This document shows positions 9,293-59,554 of a stretch of 64,000 bases of DNA, one piece after another. The position numbers and the translations under genes were made by a program. The notes under the pieces are model-generated. The model was not told where the DNA came from and did not search any database. It saw only the letters and a program-made list of their open reading frames with translations. The stretch is from Phormidium tenue FACHB-1050 (GTDB lineage: Bacteria > Cyanobacteriota > Cyanobacteriia > Pseudanabaenales > Pseudanabaenaceae), in contig NZ_JACJQY010000005.1 in NCBI RefSeq assembly GCF_014696925.1, positions 1-64,000 of the forward strand. Direction: 5' to 3'. Each line of letters opens with the position of its first letter. Positions within the stretch are counted from its first letter, which is position 1.

Positions 9293-12200
9293 TCAGCGAT
9301 CGCCATAGTTATCTAGCCATGCATTACCTTGAATAATTAGATCAGGAAGATTAAGATTCCATAGCTCAATGTTGTTGCTGCCATGCCCAGAAGCAAAGCC
9401 GCGACCATCGGGGCGGAAACAGAGACTGATTGGAGTGCTATCTGGACATGAGAGAGTTTGTAACTCCTTCCCATCAATACTCCAGAGCTTAATTGTATTA
9501 TCACTACTTCCCGAAATAATACTCCGACCATCGGGACTAAAACTTACCGTCCAGATCCCCGCATCATGCCCTCTAAAAGTTCGCAATAAAGAGCCTTCAA
9601 GGTTCCAAAGCTTGAGCGTGCTGTCGCCACTACCAGATAGAATATATTGACCGTCAGGACTAAAGCAAACACTCCAAACAGCACCACGATGACCATGCAG
9701 GGTTTTGATTTCTGTACCCTCAATACTCCATAGCTTAACTGTATCGTCACCACTGCCAGAGATAATTTTTTGACCATCGGGACTAAAGCGCACCGTCCAC
9801 ACCGTAGACTTATGCCCTTTGAGGGTGGCTAGTTCAGTACCATCAATGCTCCATAATTTAATAGATTTATCGCTACTTCCAGAAACGATTTTTTGACCAT
9901 CGGAACTATAGTCTACCGTCCAGACAGCAGTACTATGTCCCGTGAATGTTTGCAAAAGTTGATGACTATTCCCACTCACAGACCATAGAGAAATAGCACT
10001 GTCACCACTACCAACTAATAGACTATTTCCATCAGGACTAAAACAGAGACTGAGAATGTCATTATCGCCAACAATGGTTTGGAGTTCATTACCTTGCAGA
10101 TCCCAGATTTTAATTTGATCATCAAGGCTACCTGAGGCAAGTCGCAAACTATCGGGACTAAAAGCAACACTCCTTACAGCCGCGCTATGTCCAGATAATG
10201 TTTGCTGTTTCCTGTTCTCAATTTGCCATTGCCGCACCGTGCAATCAAGACTAGCTGAGAGCAGGGTCTTGCCATCAGGACTAAAACTGACGGAACGGAT
10301 TGGATCGGTGTGACCTTTAAAGATTTGTAATTCTTTGCCATGCAGATCCCAGATTTTAATGTTTTTATCGGCGCTACCTGTAGCTAACATTGTTTCTCCA
10401 GGGCTAAAGCAAACACTGCGAATAGCACTGGAATGGGCTGAAATCGAAAAGGCTTCGGCGATCGCTTTTTCACCATTGATATTCTCAATGTGCCATAGCT
10501 TGAGAATATTATCACCACTACCCGAAGCGATGAATTCACCACTGAGGCTAATGCTAATGCTGCGAATGTCGGCGGTGTGACCTTTAAGCGTGTGGAGCAA
10601 TGTGCCATCTAGACTCCAAATCATAATGTTTTTGTCCGCACCACCCGAAATAATCCATTCCCCATCTGGACTAAACAAGACAGTTCGCACATCACCACGA
10701 TGTCCGCTAATGGTCAATATTTCCGTACCATCACGATGCCAGAGCTTAATCGTCTGATCGCCACTGCCTGAGACGATCATTTCTCCATTGGGACTAAATT
10801 GTGCGCTCCAAACTGCGGCGGTATGTCCTACAAAAGTATGTAAGCGATCTCCTTGAAGATTCCATAAAGCAATCGTCTTGTCGCTACTGCTAGAAAGAAT
10901 CGTCTGTCCATCGGGACTAAAACAAGCGCTACGCACTGGGGCAGTATGACCAACAATTTGGGCAACTTCTTGTCCGTCAATCTGCCAAATTTTAATTGTT
11001 TTATCTAATCCCCCAGTGATGATTTGCGAGCCATCGGGACTAAATTCCGCACTCCATACACCTTCTAGATGAGCTTGAATGCGATTTTTCTCTTTAATCT
11101 CGTAGATAGCGCGATAAATTGTACTGGTTAGCTGTAAGCGATTTTCACTAGATAGCGAATCAATATCTGGTAGCCACTGTTTGCCGATCTGCATGGCTTT
11201 AGCTAGCTCGTCAAGATCGACCAGATGATTAGTGAGTAGACTATTTAGACTCAAACTATCAGCGATCGCTTGAGAGTTTTTGAATGAACTTTCTAATTGA
11301 CGGACAGTTTGGCGGAGTTCTCCTTGAGTCTTTTCTAATTCTTTTTGCAGCTTTTGGATCTCTGGAGCCTGTGATTTGCGAATTACTACCGCCAAATAAT
11401 CATGGACTAATTGGCAACGATTGGTCGCATTTTCAGGAATTAATACCACTAGTCCCGAACCAATCAAGATTTGGAGGACGAGTTCGATTTTGCTGATTTC
11501 GATATCTGCATCATTTTCTAGATTTTCTAGATCTACAGCGAGATTCCATTCTGCATCTAATTTACTTTGTTTACGAACCTCACTATCCAGATGATTGAGT
11601 CCTCGTTCTAGATCCTCATAGGTTTTGAGAGGTCTGGTTCCCTTCTCATCTGTTAGTAAGTATAAAAGCAAGTTAGTTAATCGATAGTTCTCTCTACCGC
11701 AGTCACAAACTACATTGTCCAAATATCGCTGGACAAGGGTTTCTTTAGGATTATTACCTAGCTTTTGATATTGTTGGATGGTGCTAATCCGATCATGTTG
11801 TAATTGCGCTCCCACGATCTGTAACTCAATCGGACGAATTTCATCCTGCTCATTCTTTAAGTCTTCCACTAAAATGTCGATGAGTTGAGCTTCCAAGTAA
11901 AATTGCGCTCTCTCCGTAAGAGTTTCAATCGTCGAGTGGGCGGCGGCTGGAGAAAAATTGCCTAAAGGATAGAGGACATTTTTGCTGAGAATGTCATTGT
12001 CGATCGCACTCATGCTCTTAATGCGATTAACTTCTAAGAGGTAGTGAATATAATCTTCTCGGAGTGATAGCACCACTTTAATTGATGACAAATATTGGAA
12101 GTCACTAAGTAAACTTCCAATAAATTCAAAGAACCGCAGGCGATCGCTAGTGCTATGTTGATGCACAAAGAAAAATTCTTCAAACTGGTCAAAAATCAAG

Positions 12201-14158
12201 ACTGTACGCAGGTTTCTTGCTTCATTCCATCGTAGTTGTTCAGTTAGGCGATCGCATAGAATATCTTTTGTCAAATCTTCGCTATAGCTCAAACTAAGTA
12301 GCGGCGCTGAAGTTAGTTTGAGTGCTTGTAATGACTCCGTTAACAGATTAATTAGTTCTTGTTCCCAACTTGTATAAACTCGAATCGAAATGGGGATTAT
12401 ATCGCGTCCTCCAAAGGAAGTCTGTTGCAGTGCTGGCATCAATCCTGCGTTGATGAAAGAACTTTTACCGACCCCAGAGTTACCATGCAGCACAATCATT
12501 TTGTAGCGGGGTTCACCAATGCGATTGGTCAGTTCGTCGAGGTCTTGCTTACGTCCTGAAGCGTAGATTTCTGGTGAGATGATATATTTATTGCCCTTGT
12601 CCACAAAGCTGGAATGCTCCTCCAGACAAGATTGTAATTGTCCTGCGCCAATAAATGCACGGTATCCATATCGCTGCTCGATCGCTAAACGTTCTTGTTT
12701 AGTTTGAAATGCTTCTAAATATTGTCCCTGACTAAAATACAAATTGCGTAATTGATTCAAAATCCGAATGTACATCCGTGGATGTCCGCAATGATCTCTA
12801 CTTTTAGCAGCGATCAAATTGGTCAGAGCTTGTTCCCGATCGCCCAGTTGAATTTGTGCTTCGGAAAGATAACACAAATACAATCCGTATAACCAATGGG
12901 AGGTTGTTGGTGCATCTTCTAAAAGGGCGATCGCTTGTTCGGCATATTCCTTAGCGGTTTCCCATTCCTCATGTTCTATGGCAACTACTGCTAAGAAGCC
13001 GTAGTCAGCAGCCAAATTACTGATATCTCCATGGGTTTGATGAATCTGGATCGCTTTTTGGGAGATATCTTTGAGTTCTGTCCATGACTGTAAGTGATGT
13101 AAAGTACGTTGCAACTGTAGGTAGCACTGGGACATCAAATCAGGACGATTGGCTAATTGAAAGCAAGCTAAACTCCTTGCAAATAAATGCTCTACGGCTT
13201 GCCAGTTTTCCTCATGGGAATGTTTTTCTAGTTTGGTGAGGTGATAGCGCCGTCGCCCAATCTGATAAAGGAGTAGCGCTTGTCGTTCCACATTTTGGAC
13301 TGATTCCCAATAATTGTAACTTGCTTGCAGATGGGACAAGGATTGGGTAAAGTCTCGCGTATTCATGCCTCGAATGAAGTCTAAACCTGCTTGCAAAGAT
13401 GGCGAGATTCGCTGTCCTTGACTTTGTAAATCGCGCAGAGCCACATCTAGTTCTGAAAGATAAATACCGCCTAGATGGGAAATACGCCCAAGACTATGAC
13501 TAGGATCGATCAAATTAGCGCCTAGGGCTAAGTGAAATAACGCTTCAGTTCCCGATGTTAGGGATTCAATCAAGTCTTCACTGGCGATCGCAAACTCAAT
13601 TGTAGTTGTCCAACTCTCAAAGTCTGGAGCAACTCTAATCATCCGCTTCAACAAATCGTCATTGATCCACAATACGATGGGATACAAACAATTTTTGCGA
13701 AATTCCTCTCGAATTTGATTTAATCCCTTGACTAAAATATCGGGGCTATCTGTTGCTTCTAGCCCAGTTAGCATTACCGCAGGTAAGTTGCCTTCTCTGG
13801 TCGCAGGAGTTGACGAATGAATCGCATGGTAGATTGATTTAGTTTGAGGTTCTAATCGCACTTGACGCATTGATGTTGATGAGATTTCTGCTAATCTAGC
13901 GATCGCGCGATCGCGAAGATTGACATAATTACAACGCGCCAGTAAGAGGGTGAAAGTCCCATCATAAATATCCAAGAGCAAAGATAATTCTTGTAGTGAA
14001 TCTTCGATCTCAGGTGAAATATTGAAAGAATTGACTAGTTCATTTTGATAAAGATCCAGTTGTGAGGTCAATTGCTGGAGCGCACGTTCTGCCTCGGGAG
14101 AAATATTAAATCCAGTTACATCTTCTTCTGGAGACTTAGCATAGGGAATCTGTGACAT
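9293..14158 (-). CDS. TPR / nSTAND ATPase / 14-WD40 repeat sensor protein
   Basis: This is a 1621-residue multidomain protein. Residues 1-200 form a domain with TFTLLLARCNY, PAVMLTGLEATD and VAPDFESWTTTIEFA, shared with the TPR protein at 56973. Residues 250-510 are helical TPR-like. An nSTAND-type ATPase follows with Walker A GNSGVGKSSFINAG near residue 559 and Walker B-like TVLIFDQFEEFFF. A coiled-coil linker (QKLQKELEKTQGELRQTVRQ) leads to 14 WD40 repeats from about residue 1030 to the end, enough for two seven-bladed propellers. STAND proteins couple ligand sensing to ATP-driven oligomerisation in signalling or defence. The ATG at 14158 is preferred; the open frame continues 26 codons upstream into a family 2 repeat. 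The P-loop ATPase at 14441 is directly upstream on the same strand. Ligand and output are unknown. Confidence 0.85.
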   Translation of the reverse strand: MSQIPYAKSPEEDVTGFNISPEAERALQQLTSQLDLYQNELVNSFNISPEIEDSLQELSLLLDIYDGTFTLLLARCNYVNLRDRAIARLAEISSTSMRQVRLEPQTKSIYHAIHSSTPATREGNLPAVMLTGLEATDSPDILVKGLNQIREEFRKNCLYPIVLWINDDLLKRMIRVAPDFESWTTTIEFAIASEDLIESLTSGTEALFHLALGANLIDPSHSLGRISHLGGIYLSELDVALRDLQSQGQRISPSLQAGLDFIRGMNTRDFTQSLSHLQASYNYWESVQNVERQALLLYQIGRRRYHLTKLEKHSHEENWQAVEHLFARSLACFQLANRPDLMSQCYLQLQRTLHHLQSWTELKDISQKAIQIHQTHGDISNLAADYGFLAVVAIEHEEWETAKEYAEQAIALLEDAPTTSHWLYGLYLCYLSEAQIQLGDREQALTNLIAAKSRDHCGHPRMYIRILNQLRNLYFSQGQYLEAFQTKQERLAIEQRYGYRAFIGAGQLQSCLEEHSSFVDKGNKYIISPEIYASGRKQDLDELTNRIGEPRYKMIVLHGNSGVGKSSFINAGLMPALQQTSFGGRDIIPISIRVYTSWEQELINLLTESLQALKLTSAPLLSLSYSEDLTKDILCDRLTEQLRWNEARNLRTVLIFDQFEEFFFVHQHSTSDRLRFFEFIGSLLSDFQYLSSIKVVLSLREDYIHYLLEVNRIKSMSAIDNDILSKNVLYPLGNFSPAAAHSTIETLTERAQFYLEAQLIDILVEDLKNEQDEIRPIELQIVGAQLQHDRISTIQQYQKLGNNPKETLVQRYLDNVVCDCGRENYRLTNLLLYLLTDEKGTRPLKTYEDLERGLNHLDSEVRKQSKLDAEWNLAVDLENLENDADIEISKIELVLQILIGSGLVVLIPENATNRCQLVHDYLAVVIRKSQAPEIQKLQKELEKTQGELRQTVRQLESSFKNSQAIADSLSLNSLLTNHLVDLDELAKAMQIGKQWLPDIDSLSSENRLQLTSTIYRAIYEIKEKNRIQAHLEGVWSAEFSPDGSQIITGGLDKTIKIWQIDGQEVAQIVGHTAPVRSACFSPDGQTILSSSSDKTIALWNLQGDRLHTFVGHTAAVWSAQFSPNGEMIVSGSGDQTIKLWHRDGTEILTISGHRGDVRTVLFSPDGEWIISGGADKNIMIWSLDGTLLHTLKGHTADIRSISISLSGEFIASGSGDNILKLWHIENINGEKAIAEAFSISAHSSAIRSVCFSPGETMLATGSADKNIKIWDLHGKELQIFKGHTDPIRSVSFSPDGKTLLSASLDCTVRQWQIENRKQQTLSGHSAAVRSVAFSPDSLRLASGSLDDQIKIWDLQGNELQTIVGDNDILSLCFSPDGNSLLVGSGDSAISLWSVSGNSHQLLQTFTGHSTAVWTVDYSSDGQKIVSGSSDKSIKLWSIDGTELATLKGHKSTVWTVRFSPDGQKIISGSGDDTVKLWSIEGTEIKTLHGHRGAVWSVCFSPDGQYILSGSGDSTLKLWNLEGSLLRTFRGHDAGIWTVSFSPDGRSIISGSSDNTIKLWSIDGKELQTLSCPDSTPISLCFRPDGRGFASGHGSNNIELWNLNLPDLIIQGNAWLDNYGDR

Positions 14159-14189
14159 AGTTTTTGCCCTCGGCGATCGCGGATAATTG

Positions 14190-14292
14190 TACCAATTCAC
14201 AAAAGAGTGACAACACTTTTGTGAATTAAAAACCAAACCCAGTCAGGGTTTTAAAAACACAAAATGGATATGCCATTTTGTGTTTTGGTGTA
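14190..14292. repeat. Family 2 palindromic element (103 bp) in the 5' region of the WD40 gene
   Basis: GTACCAATTCACAAAAGAGT at one end and CACAAAATGGATATGCCATT near the other, with the CAAACCCAGTCAGGGTTTT spacer. It lies about 30 nt upstream of the WD40 gene start, between it and the P-loop ATPase gene. 14293-14440 holds no gene. Confidence 0.8.
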
Positions 14293-14440
14293 ATTTCACT
14301 TTTTGAGCAAAGGAGAAAACTAAAAATCTAAGTCACTCCCCTTTGCAAAAATGAGGCTAGGGATCTGAGCTTTGTTGAATTTGAGAATTGACTCAGTTAT
14401 TTATATACGTTAGCTTTTAGAGGATCTCACAAGAGAAATC

Positions 14441-15799
14441 CTAAGATACGTCAAATTCTTGAGCAGTGACAAGTACAGGATTCACCTCAAACCAAGAACC
14501 ATTTTCATCTTGATATTCATATACGTACATGCTTCTAATCAAGGTTTGATAGCCAGTATCACCCACCACCTTCTTAGTACTATTTACCTGTCTCAATAGT
14601 TTCCATTCATCATCATCTATAGAAAGAACTAACTCATTACGACGTTTACGGATCGTATCTTCGAGAACCTCAAGGGTGACAGGTAAACCACGTTGTTTAC
14701 GGAGAGCATCATTGAGCAGGCGCATAATATTTCGCACATGACCTCCACTCGCAAAGCAGAGTCGATCAAGTGTCGTCATACTGTCAAAAACTTGATTAAT
14801 AGCATTTAATCGCTCAGTGGGAGAGCTATCTGGCAATACTCGCGATAGAATCATTTGACGCAAAAGTGCAATGCCTTCCTCATGGGTACTACCATCGCGG
14901 CGTACTACAGGAACCATTGGTAGCACAATCGGATCGGTCATAAATCTGGCTGTGAGTGTGCCGTAATCCCTTGAGAATCTCAAAGCAAGGGGCATGGTGT
15001 ATACCACATGGCATTGTAATTTGCGAAGCTGCTCTGCCCGATCTACAAATAAATATTCAGTTTGAGGTCTGCCCCAAGGTTTTGGTGAATCGTCAACGCG
15101 ATCAAGGTTATCCACGATCACCACAAGCCCTTCTTTGCCTAGTTTTTTAAGATCAGCGATCGCAGGCAATAGGATTTCATTATTGATTAAGTCCAGCAAG
15201 CCATTGGTTTTTGGCTCCATGTAGCCGCGTAGTTTACTCCGCATATCGGGGCTATCTTTGGTCTTGGCGGACAGTTTGCCAATACCTAGAGATAGCGAAA
15301 ATTCACCACTTGTACTTGCCTCCACCTTACCAATCCCTGGGACATCGGCTTCGGCAGAGAGTTCAATCTCCGTATTTAAGATTTTGACCGCGCCGTTGAG
15401 CATAGCCCGAAATCCTTTGGCTTCAGTCTTGACTTTGATCGCCTCTAAGCTCTCAACCACACGTCTCGCGATCGCGAGGAGGATGTCACTGAGATCGACA
15501 TCGCCCATCTCCATGTCTTGGCTAGACTCAAAGTAAACGACATGAAACCCTTCACTTTCTAGTTGTTGCTTAAGCTGCAAGATTTCTGTAGATTTACCGC
15601 AACCGATATGTCCTGTAAATAACTGACAAGTCGGCTGTCCATCTGAAAAAAGCGAAATGTTATCCTTTAAATCTTCGACAACTTTGCCGCCCCGAACCGT
15701 CGAAAAGTCAATGTAGTACTTTTTGTCTTCGGCACTATCTGCAAGCAAGGTTTTACTTGGATCAGTTGCCTTAAAAAATCTCTTGTAATCTACAGTCAT
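14441..15799 (-). CDS. P-loop ATPase, partner of the WD40/nSTAND protein
   Basis: This 452-residue NTPase has Walker A TGHIGCGKSTEILQL near residue 62, Walker B VVIVDNLDRVDD near residue 225, and a sensor-like ASGGHVRNIMRLLNDA near residue 345. It is clearly paralogous to the protein at 55658 (TGHRGCGKSTE, VIVDNLDR, ASGGHIRQLMQL). A Ser/Gly-rich insert (VEASTSGEFSLSLGIGKLS) lies between the two Walker motifs. The family is AAA/KAP-like in appearance; the exact clade cannot be fixed by eye. It is first of two same-strand genes, 282 nt upstream of the WD40 gene, with a family 2 repeat between. It is divergent from the kinase at 15903, with 103 nt between them. Confidence 0.8.
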   Translation of the reverse strand: MTVDYKRFFKATDPSKTLLADSAEDKKYYIDFSTVRGGKVVEDLKDNISLFSDGQPTCQLFTGHIGCGKSTEILQLKQQLESEGFHVVYFESSQDMEMGDVDLSDILLAIARRVVESLEAIKVKTEAKGFRAMLNGAVKILNTEIELSAEADVPGIGKVEASTSGEFSLSLGIGKLSAKTKDSPDMRSKLRGYMEPKTNGLLDLINNEILLPAIADLKKLGKEGLVVIVDNLDRVDDSPKPWGRPQTEYLFVDRAEQLRKLQCHVVYTMPLALRFSRDYGTLTARFMTDPIVLPMVPVVRRDGSTHEEGIALLRQMILSRVLPDSSPTERLNAINQVFDSMTTLDRLCFASGGHVRNIMRLLNDALRKQRGLPVTLEVLEDTIRKRRNELVLSIDDDEWKLLRQVNSTKKVVGDTGYQTLIRSMYVYEYQDENGSWFEVNPVLVTAQEFDVS

Positions 15800-15902: not shown

Positions 15903-18900
15903 ATGCGTAGTGTTAAAAAGTTACTACTACATATGCTGGTAAATATACCTAAATACCAACTTGTTGAAAAGATTTACGAGAGTTCCAATTCTCAAGTTTT
16001 TCGTGGTATCCGTCAACAGGATAACTTACCAGTTATCTTAAAAGTCTTAAATACTGAGTTTCCTACCTCCCAAGTCATTGGCAGGTACAAATTAGAATAT
16101 GAAATCACTAGAAAACTAGCTTCTAATTCGGTGATTCACGCCTATGATTTACAGCGATATCAAAGTGGATGGCTGATCGTATTAGAAGACTTTGGAGGCA
16201 AATCCTTAGCTCAAATATTAGCTCAAAAAAAGTTGAGTCTAATGGAATTCTTGAATTTGGCGATTCAGATCTGTGAAGGTGTCAGTGAAATCCACGCTGC
16301 TAACATCATTCATAAGGATCTCAACCCGTCTAATATTGTTATTAACCCAGAAACGCAGCAATTAAAAATCATCGATTTTGGGATTGCATCGGATTTAACG
16401 AAAGAGACATTAATCCCCAATCATAATCAAGTAATAGAGGGAACTTTAGACTATATTTCACCTGAACAGACGGGGAGGATGAACCGATCGCTGGATTATC
16501 GTACAGATATTTATTCGATGGGTGCGACCTTTTATCAAATGCTTACGGAGCGCTTACCCTTTGAGTCTGATCATCCTTTGGAACTAATTCACTATCATCT
16601 AGCTCTAGAACCGATCGCCCCACACTTAATTTATCCTCAAATCCCGTTAGTCTTATCACAAATCATCCTCAGATTACTTGCCAAAACTGCTGAAGAAAGG
16701 TACCAAAGTGCATGGGGTGTAAAAGCTGATTTAGAGAAATGTTTAAGCCAGTTGCAAGAAAAAGGAGAAATAGCCTCTTTTGAGCTTGCACAACAGGATA
16801 TTGCTGATAAGTTTTTGATTTCTGAAAAGCTTTATGGTCGAACTAGAGAAATTGAGAATTTATTAACAGCCTTTGCAAGGATCGCTGATGGAGTTAATTC
16901 TAAGGGGGATTTAGTGGAAATGGTCTTGATATCAGGATATGCGGGTATTGGCAAGTCTACCCTTGTACAGGAAATCCATAAACCGATCGCCCAAAGTCAA
17001 GGCTATTTTATATCTGGCAAATTTGAGCAATATCAGCGTAATATCCCTTATTTAGCAATTATTCAGGCTTTTCAGGATCTCATCAAGCAATTACTAACGG
17101 AGAGTACAGAGAGGCTAGAACAATGGCGATCGCAGATTAATGTTGCCTTGGGGGCTAATAGTCAGATGATCACCCAAGTGATACCATCGTTAGAGCTGAT
17201 TATTGGGAAACAAGCAGATAAATCCCTATCCCCAAATTCATCGGCAAATATCTCAGCAAGTGAAGCTCAAAATCGATTTAATCGTGTTTTCCAGAATTTT
17301 ATCCGTGTTTTCGCTCAATCTGACAATCCATTGGTGATCTTTTTAGATGATCTGCAATGGGCTGATCGCGCTTCTCTAAAATTGCTAGAGATATTAGCAA
17401 CTACTAACGAAGCTCAGACTTTACTTTTGATTGGTGCATACCGCGATAATGAAGTTAATCCAACGCATCCAATCATGCAAATGATTGAGAGGATTCAGCA
17501 GGAAAATGGAGCAATCAATCAACTTTATTTAACAGCTTTAAATCTTACAGATATCAATCAGCTGATTGCGGATACTTTGCATTGCGCCGCAACAAATTCC
17601 CTACCATTGGCAAAACTTGTGCAACAAAAGACCGATGGAAATCCTTTCTTTATGAATGAATTTCTGAAGTCTTTATATAGTGAAGGTTTACTAGGATTTG
17701 ACTATCAATCACGGAAATGGCGATGGTTAATTGCACAGATTCAAGAGCAAGGAATTACGGATAATATCGTGAGTTTGATGGCGGGGAAGATCCAAAAGTT
17801 GAGCGATCGCACCCAGCAATTGTTGCAAATAGCTGCTTGTATCGGCAATCAGTTTGACCTTGATACATTAGTGCTTGCCTCAGAGCGATCGCATATTGAG
17901 ACGATCCAATCCCTCAGAGAGTCTATTTGCGAAGGATTAATCTTGCCCCTTAATCCTGCCCACCAATCAATTCATTATGGAATTGAGTTAACTGATGATC
18001 ATCCTGCGATCGCCTATAGATTTGTCCATGACCGTATTCAACAAGCCGCCCACTCACTCATTTCTGAAGTACATCAGTCTGTAATACATCAAAGAATAGG
18101 TCAGCAGTTACTAAAAAACACCTCTAGCGAGGAACTAGAATCTAAAGTTTTTGACATCGTTGATCAACTGAATCTGAGTTTAGGACTTATTTCTAGTCAA
18201 AGCGATCGCGATCAATTGGCGCAACTCAATTTGCTCGCCGCACAAAAAGCTAAAGCTGCAACTGCCTATAGTAATGCCTTGCTCTATGTCAAAACTGGTG
18301 TGGAATTGCTAGCGATCGCCTGTTGGCAAAATCAATATGAGCTATCTCTCAACCTCTACCAGCTAGCCGTTGAGGTCGCATACTTAAATGGTGATTTTGA
18401 GCAGATGCAAGATTGGGCAAATATTCTTACTAATCATGGTAAAACGCTATTAGCCAAAATCAAGGTTTACGAGATTCAAATTCAAGCTTTGGTTGCCCAA
18501 AATCATCGACTAGAAGCGATCGCGATGGGAATAGACACATTAAGTCTATTAGAGATGGCTCTGCCTAAACAACTTTCACCAGCAGATTTAGAAATAGCTT
18601 TGCAAGATTTCCAAGAATTTCTTGCCCTTCATCCTGTTGAATCTCTATTAGAACAACCATTAATGACCGATCAAATTGCGATCGCTTCAGTAAATATTCT
18701 TTTGAGTATTGCGGCGGCTGCTTACGGTTCGGCTTCAGACCTATACATTCTCATCGTTTTACAATTAGTGAGACTATCCATTACAAAGGGAAATGCGATC
18801 GGTTCCGCTTACGGGTATTCTGCTTGTGGACTAATTCTCTGTGGACTGATGAACCAAATGGAATTAGGCTATCAATTTGGTCAATTAGCCCTGCAATTAC

Positions 18901-21900
18901 TAGATCAATTTGAATCCCAAGAGTTAACAGCCAAGACTTTAGTGATCGTTAATGTATTTATCGCTCATTGGAAATATCACCTCCAAAACACTCTTCAACC
19001 TCTGCTAAATGCTTACATTATTGGTATAGAAACAGGGGATTATGAATTTGGCGCTTATGGTTTATGTTTACATAGTCAATACCTCTACTTTACGGGAAGA
19101 GAGCTAAGTGGGCTTGCACAGGAAATATCAGGGTATGAAACTCTCATCAGTCAACTAAAACAACAAACAACTCTCAATTGGTTATATATTTATCACCAAA
19201 ATATTCTGAATTTGCTTGGGAAATCGTCAGATCCTTGTCGTTTAGTAGGAGAAGTCTACAATATTGATACGATGCTGCCGATACATATACAGAAAGCCGA
19301 TCGCATTGCGATACATATGCTGTATTTTCATCAGGTTGTACTTTGCTATCTATTTGAAAACTATCACCTAGCCATTGATCATGCGGCTCAAGTCAAACTA
19401 TATGAGGATGCCGCCATTGGGGTAAGATCTTACGCAGTTTTCTATTTGTACGAATCCCTCGCGAATTTAGCAGTTTATACCCATCTGACGATCGCCGAAC
19501 AAGATCAAACTATGGCTAAGGTTGATGCTAACCTCGAAAAAATCCAGTTTTGGGCAGAACATGCGCCGATGAATTTTCGACATCAACAGCATCTAATCGA
19601 AGCGGAACGATATCGGGTATTAGGACAAGTACTAACAGCAATGGATTGCTATGACCTCGCGATCGCTGAGGCTAGAGAAAATGGCTATATCCAAGATCAA
19701 GCATTGGCTAACGAACTAGCTGCTAAGTTCTATTTTGCTCAAAATCGTCTAACGATTGCTAGAGCCTATATGCGAGAAGCTAGATATTACTATTTGCAGT
19801 GGGGCGCATTAGCGAAAGTACAGCATTTAGAAAAACAATATCCTATCCTTTTGGAGAACCGTTTAGCTGATAAGAGTTCAAGGAAAAGCCTACAAAAAAA
19901 CTCGATTTCTACACAATCATCCTCCAATAGTTTACACACCCTCGATCTAGAAGCCGTAATCAGGGCTTCTCAAGCGATCGCTAGCGAAATTAAGCTAGAT
20001 CAACTTCTCTCAACTTTAATGTGTATTTTGATTGAGAATGCAGGAGCGCAAACTGGTTATTTGTTATTGCCCAAGAATTTATCTAATTCCTCAGATAGTA
20101 ATAATCCTGAATTGAAGATGGCATTCGCTTCGCACAGCCCATCATCAAATCAGGATCAATGGATGATTGAGGCAATTAAGACAATTAACTATGATCATGT
20201 AGTGGTCTTGCAGTCCATTCCTATGGATACAATTTCCGTTGATGGAAACTTTTATGTGCCAAGCTCTTTGGTGCATTATGTCGCTCGTACCCAAGAGAGT
20301 GTCGTATTGCATAATGCTTGCCAATCTGGAGATTTTCAAAACGATCCTTGGATTGTGCAGTACCAGTCAAAATCATTGCTATGTATGCCCCTATTAAATC
20401 AGGGGCGCATGACTGCCATTGCACTTTTAGAAAATAGTCTTGTCACCGATGCATTTACGCCAGATCGCATCGAAATCCTCAATTTACTCTCCGCACAAGC
20501 AGCCATTTCTATTGTTAAAGCGCGACTTCTCCAGCAGCAAGAAGAACTCAATCAATCTTTGCAAGTAGAAATTTCTGAGCGCCAGTTAGCCGAAAAAGAA
20601 CGCGATCGCCTAATTGCAATCCTCCAAGCCTCAACAGATATTATTGGCATGACATCGCCACAGGGAAAAGTCATATGGAGTAACATACAGGCTCATAAAG
20701 TTCAGGGGCTAACACCTGAAACCGATATCTCTGACTTAACAATTGTGAATTATCACCCACAATGGGCGCTAGAGATTATTCAAAATCAGGGTCTACCCAC
20801 CGCAGTTCAACGGGGAATATGGGTTGGAGAAACTGCTTTATTAACCTATGAAGGTACTGAAATCCCCGTTTCTCAAATGATTATCGCCCATAAATCCGCC
20901 CAAGGAGAGTTGGAATATATCTCCACAATTATGCGGGATATCAGTGAAGCTAAAGAAAGAGAATCGGCTCTGAAACGATCAGAGAAGACATTACAAAATC
21001 TAGTCGCAGGGACAGCAGCCGTCACAGGCAAAGACTTTTTCCCTGCCCTAGTTAGACATATTGCCGAAGCCTTGCATGTTAAATATGCACTAGTTACGGA
21101 GCTAATTGGTGAAGAACTGCATTCCTTAGCATTTTGGGCTGATGGAGCTATGCAACCAACAATTAGTTATTTGCCTGCGCGAACTCCCTGCGAACTCGCC
21201 TTAGAGAATGGAGAATTTATCTGTCATAGTCTGTTACAGCAAGTATTTCCTGAAGATCTAGCCTTAGGGGTAATGCAAGCAGATAGCTATATGGGAATTT
21301 CGCTCAAAGATGAGCATGAAAATGCGATCGGTAATCTTTGTATTTTCGACGTACAACCCTTGCAAGACATTGAACGAACTCGAAATATTCTGCAAGTATT
21401 TGCCTCTAGGGCTTCGGCTGAGTTACAACGCAAAGCTGCTAATGAGGCTCTATATCAACTTAATCAGTCCCTTGAGTCGAGAGTCAAGCAGCGTACTGCT
21501 CAACTAGAAGCAGCTAATAAAGAATTAGAATCTTTTGCCTATTCTGTTTCCCATGATCTTCGCGCACCGTTAAGGGCGATCGATGGATTTTCGAGGATTT
21601 TACAAGAAGACTATTGCGATCGCTTAGATGGCGAAGGTAAGCGTTATCTCAAAATTGTCCGAGACAATGCCAAACGTATGGGTGAATTGATCGATGATCT
21701 TTTAAACCTATCACGCTGTAATCGCAGGGAACTCTCGCGACGATTAATTTTGACAAATAATCTGATTCAACAAATATTAATTGACTTTGAGTCAGAAATC
21801 GTAGCGCGTCAAATTGAGTTTACTATTGCTGATTTGCCTAACTGTGAGGCTGATAATTCTTTGTTAACTCAAGTATGGATTAACTTGATTTCAAATGCGA

Positions 21901-22202
21901 TCAAATATACAGGAAAGCTTGAGAAGGCAAGCATTGAAATTGGTTGGCAATTAATTGATTGTCAAAATGTATATTTTATTCGTGATAATGGTGCGGGATT
22001 TGATATGCAATATGCAGATAAATTATTTGGTGTATTTCAGCGAATGCATTTGGAAAAAGATTTTGAAGGCACGGGTATTGGATTAGCGATCGCTCAACGG
22101 ATTATTCAAAGACATGGCGGCAAAATTTGGGCTGAAGCAAAATTGAATCAAGGTGCAACTTTTTACTTCACGATACCTGATCAATCACCAAATTACTTGT
22201 GA
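15903..22202 (+). CDS. HstK-type Ser/Thr kinase - AAA ATPase - GAF/PAS - histidine kinase
   Basis: This 2099-residue signalling protein has an N-terminal Ser/Thr kinase (about 15-290) with catalytic HKDLNPSN and DFGIA. An AAA_16-type ATPase has Walker A GYAGIGKSTLV near 345 and Walker B LVIFLDDLQWADR. A long helical region follows to about 1320, then GAF (from about 1348), PAS (from about 1572), a second GAF (about 1700-1840), HisKA with SVSHDLRAPLRA near 1883, and HATPase_c (RDNGAGFD, GTGIGLAI). Cyanobacterial HstK proteins combine both kinase types in one chain; some affect heterocyst or stress responses. A later ATG at 15933 (MLVNIPKYQL) fits the family start equally well. No separate response regulator is adjacent, so the phosphoacceptor is unknown. 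Confidence 0.9.
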   Translation: MRSVKKLLLHMLVNIPKYQLVEKIYESSNSQVFRGIRQQDNLPVILKVLNTEFPTSQVIGRYKLEYEITRKLASNSVIHAYDLQRYQSGWLIVLEDFGGKSLAQILAQKKLSLMEFLNLAIQICEGVSEIHAANIIHKDLNPSNIVINPETQQLKIIDFGIASDLTKETLIPNHNQVIEGTLDYISPEQTGRMNRSLDYRTDIYSMGATFYQMLTERLPFESDHPLELIHYHLALEPIAPHLIYPQIPLVLSQIILRLLAKTAEERYQSAWGVKADLEKCLSQLQEKGEIASFELAQQDIADKFLISEKLYGRTREIENLLTAFARIADGVNSKGDLVEMVLISGYAGIGKSTLVQEIHKPIAQSQGYFISGKFEQYQRNIPYLAIIQAFQDLIKQLLTESTERLEQWRSQINVALGANSQMITQVIPSLELIIGKQADKSLSPNSSANISASEAQNRFNRVFQNFIRVFAQSDNPLVIFLDDLQWADRASLKLLEILATTNEAQTLLLIGAYRDNEVNPTHPIMQMIERIQQENGAINQLYLTALNLTDINQLIADTLHCAATNSLPLAKLVQQKTDGNPFFMNEFLKSLYSEGLLGFDYQSRKWRWLIAQIQEQGITDNIVSLMAGKIQKLSDRTQQLLQIAACIGNQFDLDTLVLASERSHIETIQSLRESICEGLILPLNPAHQSIHYGIELTDDHPAIAYRFVHDRIQQAAHSLISEVHQSVIHQRIGQQLLKNTSSEELESKVFDIVDQLNLSLGLISSQSDRDQLAQLNLLAAQKAKAATAYSNALLYVKTGVELLAIACWQNQYELSLNLYQLAVEVAYLNGDFEQMQDWANILTNHGKTLLAKIKVYEIQIQALVAQNHRLEAIAMGIDTLSLLEMALPKQLSPADLEIALQDFQEFLALHPVESLLEQPLMTDQIAIASVNILLSIAAAAYGSASDLYILIVLQLVRLSITKGNAIGSAYGYSACGLILCGLMNQMELGYQFGQLALQLLDQFESQELTAKTLVIVNVFIAHWKYHLQNTLQPLLNAYIIGIETGDYEFGAYGLCLHSQYLYFTGRELSGLAQEISGYETLISQLKQQTTLNWLYIYHQNILNLLGKSSDPCRLVGEVYNIDTMLPIHIQKADRIAIHMLYFHQVVLCYLFENYHLAIDHAAQVKLYEDAAIGVRSYAVFYLYESLANLAVYTHLTIAEQDQTMAKVDANLEKIQFWAEHAPMNFRHQQHLIEAERYRVLGQVLTAMDCYDLAIAEARENGYIQDQALANELAAKFYFAQNRLTIARAYMREARYYYLQWGALAKVQHLEKQYPILLENRLADKSSRKSLQKNSISTQSSSNSLHTLDLEAVIRASQAIASEIKLDQLLSTLMCILIENAGAQTGYLLLPKNLSNSSDSNNPELKMAFASHSPSSNQDQWMIEAIKTINYDHVVVLQSIPMDTISVDGNFYVPSSLVHYVARTQESVVLHNACQSGDFQNDPWIVQYQSKSLLCMPLLNQGRMTAIALLENSLVTDAFTPDRIEILNLLSAQAAISIVKARLLQQQEELNQSLQVEISERQLAEKERDRLIAILQASTDIIGMTSPQGKVIWSNIQAHKVQGLTPETDISDLTIVNYHPQWALEIIQNQGLPTAVQRGIWVGETALLTYEGTEIPVSQMIIAHKSAQGELEYISTIMRDISEAKERESALKRSEKTLQNLVAGTAAVTGKDFFPALVRHIAEALHVKYALVTELIGEELHSLAFWADGAMQPTISYLPARTPCELALENGEFICHSLLQQVFPEDLALGVMQADSYMGISLKDEHENAIGNLCIFDVQPLQDIERTRNILQVFASRASAELQRKAANEALYQLNQSLESRVKQRTAQLEAANKELESFAYSVSHDLRAPLRAIDGFSRILQEDYCDRLDGEGKRYLKIVRDNAKRMGELIDDLLNLSRCNRRELSRRLILTNNLIQQILIDFESEIVARQIEFTIADLPNCEADNSLLTQVWINLISNAIKYTGKLEKASIEIGWQLIDCQNVYFIRDNGAGFDMQYADKLFGVFQRMHLEKDFEGTGIGLAIAQRIIQRHGGKIWAEAKLNQGATFYFTIPDQSPNYL

Positions 22203-55657: not shown

Positions 55658-57013
55658 ATGACCAATCCCGCTAGTGATTTAGCCACAAATCTCACAGATG
55701 CCTATGAAATCTGTGATGTTGAGCCACTTCAGGGCAAGGGCTTAGAGCGATTTTATTTGCCATTGCTAGAATCGAGAAATAGTGAGGCAATCACTCAGGT
55801 TGGGCAAATTTTACAGCAGCAGAAACCAGAGTCATTTTCTACGATTTTATTTACAGGACATCGTGGCTGTGGCAAAAGTACTGAGTTACGGCGCATTGAG
55901 GATAAGTGTAAGGATCAATATTTGACTGTCTTTTTGAATGTGGAAGACGAAACTGATATTAATGATTTGGATTATATTGATATCTATTTAATGGTGATCG
56001 GTCAGGTAGAGCAAGCTTTGCGAGATCCCAAAATTAAAATTACCTTTGATCAGCAATTACTCAAGAGTGTGGAGGATTGGTTCAAAGTGGTTACGACAGA
56101 AGATGAGCGATCAGTCGCTTTGTCCCTAGATGTCGAAGCATCAGCTAGTCTGGGTAGTGAAGCTTCATTCTTTGCCAAGCTTTTGTTCAAGTTAAAGGGT
56201 GTTTTCAAGAATTCTTCGTCTCAGAAAACAACGATTCGAGAAACCTTGAAAAAAGAATTTACCCGTATGAAAGGTGACATCAATTTATTGTTGGGGGATG
56301 GGCTGAAAAAATTGCGGAAAAAGTTTCCAAATTACAAGGGCTTTTTGGTAATTGTTGATAATCTCGATCGCTGTCCACTTGCAGTCTCTGATAAGTTGTT
56401 TTTTGACTATGCAGCGCAGCTTACATCATTACACTGTTCGATAATTTACACAGTTCCGATCTCGGCACTCTACTCTTCGCGTGGGTTGAGTAATTCCTTT
56501 GACGATCCGCATATTGTGCCTATGGTGAATATCTATGAACTCGATCGCGCTAAATATCCCTTAGAGTTCAATAAAACGAGTTTAGAAGCGGTGGCAAAAA
56601 TCATTGAGAAACGGGTGGATGTGAATGTGATTTTTGATTCGCGCCGTGAGCTAATGGAATTAGTAAAGGCGAGTGGTGGGCATATTCGGCAATTGATGCA
56701 GTTGATGCAAAGAGCTTGTTTGACGGCAAGTGGTCGCGAACATGAGAAGATTTTGGCTGAGGATGTGGAATATGCGATTAAGCAGCTTCAGTTTAGTTTG
56801 GAGCGATCACTTTCTAATAAAAAATATTTTAACGAGTTGGCTTATATTGCCTTAAACAAAGATTTCTCTGATGAAGAGGATGTTAAAGTCCAGATGCTCT
56901 ACAGTACGGCGGTTCTAGAATATAACGGTAGCGATCGCTGGAATTATCCCAATCCTTTACTTATGCGTAGCAATGCTTTCACCAAAGCCATCAGCAGTAT
57001 CACAACTCCCTAA
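55658..57013 (+). CDS. P-loop ATPase, partner of the TPR protein
   Basis: The 451-residue ATPase has Walker A TGHRGCGKSTELRRI near residue 68, Walker B FLVIVDNLDRCPL near residue 228 and ASGGHIRQLMQLMQRA near residue 345. It matches the protein at 14441 in motif order, spacing and length, so the two are paralogues. The middle region has a Lys-rich helical stretch (LLFKLKGVFKNSSSQKT). Its last 41 nt overlap the start of the TPR gene in another frame, which implies translational coupling. Exact family unresolved; STAND/KAP-like AAA ATPase is an inference. Confidence 0.8.
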   Translation: MTNPASDLATNLTDAYEICDVEPLQGKGLERFYLPLLESRNSEAITQVGQILQQQKPESFSTILFTGHRGCGKSTELRRIEDKCKDQYLTVFLNVEDETDINDLDYIDIYLMVIGQVEQALRDPKIKITFDQQLLKSVEDWFKVVTTEDERSVALSLDVEASASLGSEASFFAKLLFKLKGVFKNSSSQKTTIRETLKKEFTRMKGDINLLLGDGLKKLRKKFPNYKGFLVIVDNLDRCPLAVSDKLFFDYAAQLTSLHCSIIYTVPISALYSSRGLSNSFDDPHIVPMVNIYELDRAKYPLEFNKTSLEAVAKIIEKRVDVNVIFDSRRELMELVKASGGHIRQLMQLMQRACLTASGREHEKILAEDVEYAIKQLQFSLERSLSNKKYFNELAYIALNKDFSDEEDVKVQMLYSTAVLEYNGSDRWNYPNPLLMRSNAFTKAISSITTP

Positions 57014-58508
57014 CGACGATCACGCTCAGATTGTTTCGCTTCTAGAACATAATCAGGAAGTGTTTAAGATTTTGCTTGCCTTTGTACAGATGTCCAAAGG
57101 TTTTAAGGTGGCATTTGCTGAGATAAATTTTCCACCTGACATCGATATTTTAATCACATCGTTGCAGGAACATCCAAAATGTCAATCTATTCAGTTTGTG
57201 GTGCTACGTTTTGATGATCCAGAGTTGCGATTTCTATTGGAGGCAATTAAGCAAGAGTTAGCAAATATCGAGATTCAGTCAGATAAAAAATTAGTTTTGA
57301 TTTTGCAAGGTTTGGAAAAGGCGATCGCCTTTAGTGGTGACAATCCGCCCATATTAACCAATCTCAATTATGCCCGTGATTCTTTCCCTGTCGCGATTCC
57401 CCATCCTGTGCTGTTTGCGTTGCCCGACTATGCCGTAACAAGAATCGCGCAGTTTGCACCTGACTTTTGGGCATGGACATCGGCAACCTTTAAATTCCAA
57501 ACTCCTCCCGAAACCCGCGATCGCTTAACTGCTGAAGTCTCTAACTTTTCTCACAATCCCAATCGCTATTTTGCCAAGCCCGAACGAGGGGAGCGGATCG
57601 ATTTATTAGAAAGATTATTGCAAGAATATGCTGAAGATACGGAAGCAAGTAGCCGCACAAGGTTAGAACTACTAAATCAATTAGGTAAAGCACATCAATC
57701 AATTCGTGAGTTTGATAAAGCAAAGTTATATTTTCAACAAGCGATCGAGCTTTGTCGTAAACTTAATTTCCAAAATGGTGAATTTGAAGCTTTATATAAT
57801 TTAGGTGTTCTTTGTTACAGTGCTAGGGAATTTGAGAATGCGAAATGTTCTTTCAATCAATCTTTAGTAGTTAAAGAAAAGATTGGAGATAAACAGGGAC
57901 AAGCCGATGTTTATCATTGCTTGGGTATGGTTGCCCAAAAACTAGGAGAATATGCTGAAGCGCAACAAAACTATCAGCAGGCTCTTGCGATAAAGATCGA
58001 ATTTGGAGATCTCTATTCCCAAGGCAGCACATACGCTCAGTTAGGAACTCTTGCATTAGAATTGCAGAAATATACTGAAGCACAGCAAAATTATCAACAG
58101 GCTCTCACTATATTTATCGAGTTTGACGATTACTCGTCCCAAGCCAACACATACCAAAGTTTTGGAATGGTTGCCCAATTATTGCGTGAATATGCTGAAT
58201 CTCGGCAATACTATCAAAAGGCTCTTGCAAATTTTATCGAATTTGGCGATAGCTACTCCCAAGCCCGTGTATACGTCCAATTAGGACTATTAGCAAAAGC
58301 AGAAAACAACTTCACTGAAGCAGGTAAAAATCTATTACAAGCATTAGAAATCTTTACTCAATTCCAAGATCAGCACAGTGTGGAAATGATTATAAATATT
58401 CTCTTTTACCTCTATCAAGCCACCCATGAGGAAAATTTATTGGAAGATATATCTAAGGTTTTAGGCATAACCATTGAGGAAGTTAGACAAAAATTAGAAT
58501 TAGCTTGA
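56973..58508 (+). CDS. TPR protein with APDFxxW N-terminal domain
   Basis: The 511-residue protein has an N-terminal domain of about 190 residues (FKVAFAEINFPPDIDILITS, LVLILQGLEKAIAF, FALPDYAVTRIAQFAPDFWA) that aligns with the start of the WD40/nSTAND protein at 9293. At least six TPR units follow (REFDKAKLYFQQAIELCRKL, GEYAEAQQNYQQALAI, QKYTEAQQNYQQALTI). The N-terminal domain has no Walker A and may be an inactive NTPase-like fold. The start at 56973 lies within the ATPase gene. The final 60 bases before the IS982 element contain another decayed TPR in a different frame. Confidence 0.8.
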   Translation: MLSPKPSAVSQLPNDDHAQIVSLLEHNQEVFKILLAFVQMSKGFKVAFAEINFPPDIDILITSLQEHPKCQSIQFVVLRFDDPELRFLLEAIKQELANIEIQSDKKLVLILQGLEKAIAFSGDNPPILTNLNYARDSFPVAIPHPVLFALPDYAVTRIAQFAPDFWAWTSATFKFQTPPETRDRLTAEVSNFSHNPNRYFAKPERGERIDLLERLLQEYAEDTEASSRTRLELLNQLGKAHQSIREFDKAKLYFQQAIELCRKLNFQNGEFEALYNLGVLCYSAREFENAKCSFNQSLVVKEKIGDKQGQADVYHCLGMVAQKLGEYAEAQQNYQQALAIKIEFGDLYSQGSTYAQLGTLALELQKYTEAQQNYQQALTIFIEFDDYSSQANTYQSFGMVAQLLREYAESRQYYQKALANFIEFGDSYSQARVYVQLGLLAKAENNFTEAGKNLLQALEIFTQFQDQHSVEMIINILFYLYQATHEENLLEDISKVLGITIEEVRQKLELA

Positions 58509-58571: not shown

Positions 58572-59554
58572 ACGTGAGTTCGGGTTAAGAAGCAGAAGGC
58601 AAAGCCCACTCCATATGCAAAGAAGGCTTCTTTGGTTGGTGACAATAAGCAATAAGCCCACAAATGACATTGATCAGTGCCTTGATGGGACTACGATGAC
58701 GAGAATGTTCAATCTGTGAAATATTTTTAAGTTGGTCAATGATCGACTCAATAATTGAGCGTTTGCGAGCAAGCAACTTATCAGTCAAGCGCATCAAGCG
58801 ATTTTTCATATTACGCTTTGGTTTGGCAAAGAACTCAATGCCAAAGTCTTGAAACAGTTGAGATGCTAACGACTGAGATACATAACCACGATCAGCAAAT
58901 ACTTTACCAAACATAAATCTGAGCAAATCAGGGATAGGCTTACGGTCATCGACATTGCCTGGCGTAATTTGGATATTCAACAATTCACCGCACTCATTGA
59001 CAAGTAAATGCAGTTTGAAACCAAAGAACCAATCTACTGATGTCTTACCACGAGCTGCTATGCCTTGGAAGACCTTATGCTGCTTGATCCGTCGATTGTG
59101 GCAGACATCCAATGAGGTTGAGTCTACAAAACTAATACCTGTACATTCGCCAAAACAATGTTTCAGGTATATGCATAGTGGCATCATTGCTGAACCCATA
59201 TACTCGACAAACCTGTTGTAGCTTGGTAGTTTTGGAAATTCCTTTTGCCAATACTTACATACATGTTTTTGGTAGAAATTCTTAAAGTCACGGTAGTGGT
59301 TTTGGTGAAAGGCGATCAGGATTGTCATGATTTCACTCATACTCAGACACTTTGTCCTTTGTCTTTGTTGTAAACCATTCCCCAGTAATATCTGTCGCCA
59401 TTTTGGTTCAAATATTTGGCAAAAATCATCGACATGGCAGAACAGGGCTTCTAAACTATTACTCATGGGAGTTACTTCGCTGAACTTGTTTTTCTTATTT
59501 TCAGCTTATCGGTTTCTCCCTTTTTTTGTCCTTTTCCTTATCCCGAACTCACGT
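58572..59554 (-). mobile_element. IS982-family insertion sequence
   Basis: The 983-bp element has inverted ends ACGTGAGTTCGGGTTAAG (left) and the complement of ACGTGAGTTCGGGATAAG (right). It is flanked by TAATCA direct repeats at 58566-58571 and 59555-59560 (TTAATCA if one end base is counted as target). It contains one intact transposase gene. The intact ends and target repeat suggest recent insertion. Confidence 0.88.
58585..59466 (-). CDS. IS982 family transposase
   Basis: The 293-residue protein has the IS982 pattern: SMSEIMTILIAFHQNHYRDF and LPSYNRFVEYM in the N-terminal half. The DDE residues lie in GISFVDSTSLDVCHNRRIKQ, KVFADRGYVSQ and RKRSIIESIIDQLKN. It appears full length and uninterrupted, so it is probably active. 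Confidence 0.92.
   Translation of the reverse strand: MSNSLEALFCHVDDFCQIFEPKWRQILLGNGLQQRQRTKCLSMSEIMTILIAFHQNHYRDFKNFYQKHVCKYWQKEFPKLPSYNRFVEYMGSAMMPLCIYLKHCFGECTGISFVDSTSLDVCHNRRIKQHKVFQGIAARGKTSVDWFFGFKLHLLVNECGELLNIQITPGNVDDRKPIPDLLRFMFGKVFADRGYVSQSLASQLFQDFGIEFFAKPKRNMKNRLMRLTDKLLARKRSIIESIIDQLKNISQIEHSRHRSPIKALINVICGLIAYCHQPKKPSLHMEWALPSAS

Follow-up and report, generated by a model that had tools for sequence, protein, structure and literature searches.

The first 64,000 nucleotides of contig NZ_JACJQY010000005.1 of Phormidium tenue FACHB-1050 (assembly GCF_014696925.1), hereafter called the window (contig C45 of the 5.6-Mb genome), contain two loci in which a gene for an ATPase of the active AAA+/STAND type (a1 and a2) is followed by a partner gene (p1 and p2). 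The N-terminal domain of the partners (N-domain) lacks the P-loop and is predicted to have an AAA+/STAND fold. Predicted protein-interaction arrays trail this domain, consisting of TPRs alone in p2 and of TPRs, an nSTAND1 NTPase domain, and 14 WD40 stretches in p1. We propose, with moderate confidence, that the two genes of each locus specify an NLR-like conflict switch that is split into an active STAND ATPase and an inactive-STAND sensor. The family memberships, the loss of the P-loop, the conserved gene order, the co-evolution of the two halves, and the more divergent array of locus 2 are the firm parts of this proposal, and the folds are predicted by modeling.

The ATPase and N-domain families

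The original prediction, made from the sequence alone, had described a two-gene module occurring twice in the window, with the ATPase immediately 5′ of its partner, and all four open reading frames (ORFs) are present at the claimed positions (Table 1). The two genes are 204 bases apart at locus 1, a gap that widens if a later ATG is the start of p1, and they overlap by 41 bases at locus 2. The same order and strand are found inside each pair, but the two loci lie on opposite strands. Two copies in the window is correct, but the genome has more. A search with the a1 protein lists seven ATPase matches in this genome (two in the window and the others on C9, C4, C6, C55, and C16), and an ATPase profile counts nine, not all of them listed. 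Five of the seven (both window copies, C9, C4, and C6) have an N-domain gene on the 3′ side; C55 has none, and C16 carries a fusion. The N-domain profile has eight matches in the genome, of which six are listed.

The two ATPases show 26% identity over 401 amino acid residues (108 bits) and share the motifs TGHxGCGKSTE, VIVDNLDR, and ASGGHxR, which bears out their assignment to one family. The Walker A motif (GxxxxGK[ST]) is present in 42 of 42 aligned ATPases and in 133 of the 135 paired ATPases, and a Walker B motif of the hhhxDNLD type was found in 40 of the 42. The model of a1 has a predicted local distance difference test score (pLDDT) of 89.1 and includes C-terminal helices and two strands. 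Among known folds, it resembles TnsC (Z 15.4, root mean square deviation [rmsd] 3.8, 289 aligned residues) and ORC/Cdc6 (Z 15.2), and it matches apoptotic and plant-resistosome ATPases at Z 12–14 (CED-4, Z 13.2). Based on this model, a1 has the features of the AAA+ STAND/ORC group, and a2 is placed there through its alignment with the modeled a1. The KAP NTPase model (PF07693, gathering cut-off 20 bits) scores 20.1 bits in a2 and 14.9 bits in a1, and 24.5 and 34.4 bits in two relatives (loci L012 and L193). The best NCBIfam match of a2 is ATPase_Sll1717 (NF047389; E 2.5e-7), a family of P-loop ATPases, but the score of 30.2 bits is far under the cut-off of 75 and places a2 outside it; the family is absent among the matches listed for a1. 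A weak match of the ATPase to mS29, a relative of Dap3, was found in the Protein Data Bank (PDB) sequence search (E 0.074).

Aligned with each other, the two partners score 53.9 bits in a region containing APDFxxWT. As an independent test of a shared domain, a profile was constructed from 61 N-domains of other genomes, with p1 and p2 excluded. This profile finds p1 (E 5e-69), p2 (E 2.3e-9), and the partners on C9 (8e-44), C6 (2e-16), and C4 (4e-8) of the same genome. As controls, 41 other window ORFs of at least 150 residues and five shuffled partner N termini gave no listed match at E ≤ 10. The two partners thus begin with one and the same domain, as had been claimed. Scans of Pfam, NCBIfam, PADLOC, and PHROGs gave no model that matched it above the cut-off.

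The structure was modeled for the p1 N-domain, and the p2 N-domain was joined to it by the profile and the same alignment. The AlphaFold2 model, calculated with 62 relatives (mean pLDDT 85.7, predicted template modeling score 0.82), consists of alternating helices and five strands. In the Foldseek search, the 50 rows shown were all AAA+ by name, including RAD17-RFC (E 1.9e-5), ORC, RuvB, and TnsC. The 50 rows shown by VIA-align were also AAA+ by name, with TnsC at Z 12.1 (rmsd 3.2, 145 aligned), ORC at Z 11.4 (rmsd 5.5, 172), and Sir3 at Z 11.1 (rmsd 3.2, 141). By the yardstick of VIA-align itself, the best Z is usually 7 to 8 for models that have no clear match; it re-ranks Foldseek matches only, and a family missing from its lists means nothing. 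The PDB sequence search with the p1 N-domain gave weak matches only, the best being Sir3 (E 0.015).

The pattern GxxxxGK[ST] occurs in none of 63 aligned and none of 135 paired copies of the N-domain. Where the P-loop is expected, between the first strand (residues 27–32) and the next helix (36–49), there are only the three residues CNY. The most conserved residues lie elsewhere: Arg107 is invariant, and Cys33, Asn34, Gly89, Glu91, Asp136, and Trp140 are nearly so. The original prediction had seen no Walker A motif in the shared domain and had guessed an inactive NTPase-like fold; the missing motif is evident throughout the family, and the predicted fold of the p1 copy supports an AAA+/STAND-type domain without a P-loop that is hence inactive. 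We also asked whether the N-domain had arisen by decay from this ATPase family, but the hhalign profile comparison gave no support (probability 2.5%), and only the fold is common to both. The evidence for a common origin of the ATPase and the N-domain thus reaches no further than the fold.

Downstream of the N-domain, the architectures agree with the earlier description: the Pfam search identified in p1 a clear nSTAND1 domain (98.1 bits, cut-off 27.1) along with the WD40 stretches, and TPRs in p2.

Table 1. Genes and domains of the two loci in the window
Feature	Coordinates	Strand	Basis or remark
a1, ATPase of active AAA+/STAND type, 452 residues; gene 1 of pair 1	14441..15799	(-)	
a1 Walker A, GHIGCGKS	15590..15613	(-)	Sequence
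a1 Walker B region, VIVDNLDR	15098..15121	(-)	Sequence
p1, partner gene of pair 1, 1647 residues	9293..14236	(-)	Start codon uncertain; in-frame ATG at 14158
p1 N-terminal domain, predicted inactive AAA+/STAND, without P-loop	13442..14029	(-)	APDFESW at 13610-13630
p1 TPR region	12632..13441	(-)	PF17874 and PF13424, both below the gathering score
p1 nSTAND1 NTPase domain, Walker A GNSGVGKS	11621..12556	(-)	PF20703, E 1.1e-27
p1 WD40 array, 14 Pfam stretches	9362..11071	(-)	Approximate limits
a2, ATPase of active AAA+/STAND type, 451 residues; gene 1 of pair 2	55658..57013	(+)	
a2 Walker A, GHRGCGKS	55856..55879	(+)	Sequence
a2 Walker B region, VIVDNLDR	56348..56371	(+)	Sequence
p2, partner gene of pair 2, 511 residues	56973..58508	(+)	
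p2 N-terminal domain, p1 family by profile	57015..57587	(+)	APDFWAW at 57456-57476
p2 linker and TPR array	57588..58505	(+)	PF13424, E 2.8e-30
p2 TPR array, most variable section	57783..58232	(+)	64-73% nucleotide identity to sister-strain allele; a2, 90-99%

Conserved order, co-evolution, and variability

The distribution was analyzed in a sample of 194 genomes of the cyanobacterial class, with at most eight ATPase and 16 N-domain candidates scored per genome; the copy numbers are therefore lower bounds. A profile of five ATPases matches 109 of the 194 genomes, and a profile of five N-domains matches 119. Adjacency was assessed with 150 listed N-domain matches and 249 distinct ATPase places obtained with two ATPase profiles. 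A listed ATPase is located within 3 kb on the 5′ side and on the same strand for 118 of the 150 N-domain matches, in 61 of 68 genomes (75 of 150 with one ATPase profile alone). Within 3 kb, no pair on opposite strands and two pairs in the reverse order were found, the median gap was 63 bases, and the rough chance expectation is ~0.17. In the named records (80 loci, found through an a1-type ATPase), 66 of 83 ATPase ORFs have a partner, six end less than 400 bases from a contig end, and 11 are partnerless with room for one; the 83 include both pieces of one split gene. In a chosen set of 40 loci, the partner is present in all 20 that had a listed partner and in 15 of the 20 that had none listed. 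Deduplication left 135 pairs, of which 59 overlap (25 by exactly 4 bases) and 95 lie within 100 bases of each other. Unrelated families on either side, or a lack of adjacency in other genomes, had been named beforehand as grounds for abandoning the original prediction; neither was observed, the adjacency being present in 61 genomes.

Within the genus, 13 of 16 sampled genomes have 3 to 9 ATPase matches and three have none. N-domain matches in reading frames of 1570–1850 residues without a listed ATPase were noticed in the genomes G052, G144, G158, G172, G179, and G108 of the same genus. The nearest named locus is in Pseudanabaena frigida, whose ATPase is 95% identical to a1. Outside the cyanobacteria, a plasmid of Acidisarcina polymorpha (Acidobacteriota) carries an ATPase gene and an N-domain–TPR gene with a 4-base overlap; its partner gives E 0.14 with the 61-N-domain profile and E 3.7e-5 with a 113-N-domain profile that includes copies of the window genome. 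Relatives of a1 were found in nine plasmid records and relatives of the p1 N-domain in seven, and the plasmid search with the p2 N-domain found none. In five of the seven plasmids the N-domain is at most 400 bases 3′ of the ATPase by the best places; the other two plasmids have further places outside the listing. Plasmid typing classes three of the seven as conjugative. In an Acaryochloris plasmid, the pair is flanked by two annotated integrases.

The ATPase and the N-domain co-evolve. Across the 135 pairs, the tree distances of the two halves correlate with r 0.853, and the maximum in 500 full shuffles was 0.157. To take out species history, partners were swapped within genomes, with the genomes grouped by handles and record titles. 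The swaps gave a mean of 0.644 and a maximum of 0.805, and none of 2000 reached the observed value. For 49 of 55 ATPases (24 genomes or records with at least two pairs each), the distance profile of the own partner is the best one, where 24 are expected. Six ATPases miss their own partner: the one on C9 of the window genome fits p1 better, the second one of L094 has the same partner as the first, and the remaining four come close to a tie.

The two halves change at different rates. The sister strain G158 has pair 2 in the same place beside def, with identities of 98.2% for the ATPase, 91.6% for the N-domain, and 66.3% for the linker and TPR part. At the nucleotide level, windows of def and the ATPase show 90–100% and those of the N-domain 86–91% identity; three 150-base windows of the TPR array drop to 64, 72, and 73%, followed by 88% and, at the gene end, 77%. 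The synonymous divergence (dS) at locus 2 rises along with the nonsynonymous divergence (dN), from 0.17 in the ATPase to 0.50 in the N-domain and 0.65 in the TPR part. Because dS climbs together with dN, repeat exchange or conversion in the p2 TPR array is suggested rather than point selection. The system had been called diversifying in the original prediction, and this holds insofar as the partners change faster than the ATPases, but there is no sign of positive selection: dN/dS is below 1 wherever dS was computable and 0.05–0.35 in the partner domains, the ratios being rough (dS was saturated in five comparisons and above 1 in many others).

Presence also varies between close strains. In G076, whose def is 97% identical, two other genes and no pair lie between def and a UvrD-like gene, and the pair is likewise absent beside def in G052 and G179. 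Pair 1 occurs in two Pseudanabaena relatives in a different neighborhood (a1 94–95%, p1 75–79% identity). In five other genomes it is not located beside ruvC, the coverage in G076 ending 3 kb past this gene.

Effector fusions and the proposed mechanism

A text-pattern census of the 135 partners gave 49 with nSTAND and WD40-like parts, 23 with nSTAND and other C termini, 20 without a second P-loop, seven consisting of the N-domain alone, and 36 truncated at the end of a locus or contig. The partners thus span a stand-alone domain, TPR only, and TPR–nSTAND–WD40, in accord with the modular character attributed to them. No single ORF combining an N-domain and an ATPase was found among 113 N-domain ORFs and 135 ATPase ORFs.

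The ATPase, on the other hand, is fused to other domains in several relatives. On contig C16 of the same genome (L012, 6179-10110), a 1009-residue ATPase–PtuA fusion (PtuA, E 4.5e-67) is followed after 2 bases by a PtuB-like HNH gene (E 1.9e-42); a Pfam EAD1 match (29.9 bits, cut-off 24.2) was also seen inside its PtuA part. By sequence likeness, a second genome of the genus (L228) has the same ATPase–PtuA fusion with an adjacent PtuB-like HNH gene. L094:2501-9801 (= L197:3370-10670) contains tandem ATPases, the second with a C-terminal TIR_2 domain (E 1.1e-32). In the partner that follows, the N-domain occurs twice in tandem together with nSTAND1, and there is no WD40 match. A two-ATPase/two-N-domain stoichiometry is not the rule, as L075 has two N-domains and one ATPase. 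In a Nostoc plasmid (L193:4388-8260), the ATPase forms residues 552–965 of an "SAV_2336 N-terminal domain-related" protein directly after a MoxR gene; this protein may be the vWA part of a MoxR–vWA ternary system, although the Pfam scan found no vWA in it. In L167 the ATPase is joined to nSTAND1 (E 7e-8). At L229:4707-9674, genes of 426 and 641 residues are followed on the same strand by an ATPase that is extended N-terminally by ~150 residues, and there is no N-domain gene in the 10 kb examined; this may be another system.

The neighbors of the pairs were compared as 561 ORFs of at least 110 residues within 3.5 kb (loci L073–L192). The largest cluster (22 ORFs, 21 loci) was dropped as a single-linkage mix of WD40 pieces, additional N-domain copies, and histidine-kinase-like and protein-kinase-like proteins, and the next largest clusters cover eight loci. 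In eight loci (L096, L097, L098, L162, L172, and others), the pair is divergent from ftsZ/ftsQ-like genes as judged by eye, a repeated chromosomal place. In the window itself, the gene at 15903-22202, which is oriented divergently from a1, encodes as judged by eye a protein kinase of 2099 residues that includes ATPase, GAF-like, and histidine-kinase-like parts, and L105 has a similar 2087-residue gene 3′ of a stand-alone N-domain gene. A transposase-like gene (58585-59466, by eye) lies directly 3′ of p2 in convergent orientation and is unmatched in G158.

Here, we propose a mechanism based on these results. The first gene would encode the working switch, an active ORC/STAND-like AAA+ ATPase. 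The N-domain of the second gene has lost the P-loop and probably does not bind ATP in the usual way. It most likely docks on its own ATPase as a dead subunit of a mixed AAA+ assembly, for which the inactive subunits of ORC provide a parallel that is also drawn in PMC8195603. The repeat arrays would set when the ATPase may assemble, so that sensing is coupled to ATP-dependent oligomerization, and a conflict response, for instance defense or cell suicide, is the probable output. Because the TIR and PtuA fusions hang on the ATPase, the ATPase side is suggested to be the output and the partner side the input. The effector would be part of the ATPase chain in these relatives; since neither window pair carries an output domain and no third gene is widespread beside the pairs, theirs would either work in trans or be identical with the ATPase. 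Docking, ligand sensing, oligomerization, and defense output are the steps of this model that we infer. Defense is the most likely purpose, judging from the fusions, the patchy copy number, and the variable sensor. It is also possible, though we would sooner doubt than assert it, that the pairs represent a general class of split bacterial NLRs, in which an ORC-like ATPase is licensed by an inactive-AAA+ docking domain with interchangeable, fast-changing sensor arrays, the pairs are insulated from each other by co-evolution, and the ATPase also serves as the regulator in TIR, Septu, and MoxR-linked systems.

Several observations weigh against this interpretation. In the Pfam scans, neither window pair has a toxic or nuclease domain, and no common third gene was found among the 561 neighbor ORFs; with no recognized effector and no such gene within 3.5 kb, we infer rather than observe a conflict system in the window. 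The placement beside ftsZ/ftsQ-like genes suggests long residence, not mobility, and points to an older, established role for some family members. In the PADLOC scan, a1 and a2 gave weak matches only (best E 2.1e-6, mad8), p1 and p2 were matched in their repeat regions only, and no single system was strongly matched by both genes of a pair. A single scan of viral contigs yielded 58 pattern matches and no relative. On the structural side, the Foldseek TM-scores of the N-domain are modest (0.54 by query length in the best row), and the profiles of the two halves are unlinked by hhalign, leaving a kinship of fold only. The pairing is also incomplete: 32 of the 150 listed N-domain matches have no listed ATPase, a number that may include unlisted cases, and the C33 protein of the same genome (L196:6373-11913, 1846 residues) is a true orphan with no ATPase within the 18 kb examined. 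Many of the 55 cases of partner choice pit very different subfamilies against each other, which makes the own pair easy to choose.

Alternative explanations and known systems

The most serious alternative, which we regard as unlikely but well worth weighing, is a cyanobacterial signaling or scaffold module that integrates internal cues (stress, development, or cell division) and is not involved in defense. The missing effector and third gene and the repeated position beside ftsZ/ftsQ-like genes at eight loci would fit such a role, and so would the occurrence of the profiles in more than half of the sampled genomes, which we judge wide for a single defense system. The fusions of the ATPase to TIR and PtuA, the uneven copy number within the genus, the presence or absence of locus 2 between close strains, and the local variability of its TPR array argue against it.

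We compared the pairs with systems described in PMC8195603, PMC7159879, and PMC12839542. The closest is the nSTAND2 two-gene counter-invader operon (Kaur et al. 2021, PMC8195603), in which an active STAND NTPase is encoded adjacent to an eroded-site gene that carries a variable fused region. The window pairs follow the same logic, their adjacent active/inactive layout resting on predicted folds, and they could in principle be nSTAND2 operons with other C-terminal domains. We give this reading little credence. The variable region of nSTAND2 is mostly a GT4 or HEPN effector according to that source, whereas that of the window pairs is sensor-like (TPR or TPR–nSTAND1–WD40); neither GT4 nor HEPN is among the Pfam matches listed for the partners scanned, a small part of the 135. 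Moreover, nSTAND2 is placed there nearest to Dap3, RNA12, and CR-ATPases, whereas a1 ranks TnsC and ORC first by fold, although the weak sequence match to the Dap3 relative mS29 goes the other way.

A toxin–antitoxin-like pair, with an ATPase harmful to the cell that is kept in check by the N-domain protein, would account for the tight order, the overlaps, and the co-evolution, but it is very improbable given that sensor-like partners of ~1600 residues are frequent and that partnerless ATPase genes exist (L010, and the 11 of 83 ORFs mentioned above). That the order is a mere paralogy artifact, as the occurrence of both loci in one genome might suggest, is refuted by its recurrence in 61 genomes, 80 named-record loci, and the acidobacterial plasmid.

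The split conflict switch remains our preferred explanation, and several other known systems resemble the pair in part. The iSTAND and iSTAND2 domains of MoxR–vWA ternary systems (Kaur et al. 2020, 2021) resemble the N-domain in being inactive STAND domains proposed as sensors with an active AAA+ partner. Their active partner is MoxR, whereas the window pairs combine an ORC/STAND-like ATPase with an N-domain ahead of repeat arrays, and no MoxR or vWA gene was recognized by eye beside them. BrxB and BrxF of BREX are described in PMC12839542 as iSTAND proteins with lost Walker motifs that form a fixed partner in a defense complex, as the N-domain may do; no BREX gene was recognized alongside the window pairs, whose partners have long repeat arrays. 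The nSTAND1 domain and the 14 WD40 stretches of p1 are reminiscent of single-chain STAND/NLR proteins (nSTAND1–WD40, Apaf-1/CED-4 type), and CED-4 and resistosome chains are among the matches of the ATPase model. Unlike these proteins, p1 has an extra, putatively inactive AAA+ domain in front and a second ATPase from the neighboring gene. As to Septu (PtuA/PtuB), the same ATPase family is fused to PtuA at L012 and L228, but the window pairs carry neither PtuA nor PtuB. The pair is best viewed as a variant of the known split active/inactive STAND idea, because it has the layout of the nSTAND2 operon, neither GT4 nor HEPN was listed for the partners scanned, and no MoxR–vWA neighborhood was recognized beside the window pairs. 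Literature searches with the APDFW motif returned only unrelated papers, and no published description of the ATPase/N-domain pair was recognized in searches that left subscription papers mostly uncovered.

Over half of the 194 cyanobacterial genomes in the sample carry this family, often in multiple copies, and the family's defining domain has no above-cut-off model in the four libraries scanned. The link of the ATPase to TIR or Septu effectors provides a direct route to its function. The arrangement, conserved and common in cyanobacteria, resembles split immune receptors. If the proposal is true, it would be a bacterial two-protein receptor whose switch and sensor evolve at different rates, in parallel to the helper and sensor NLRs.

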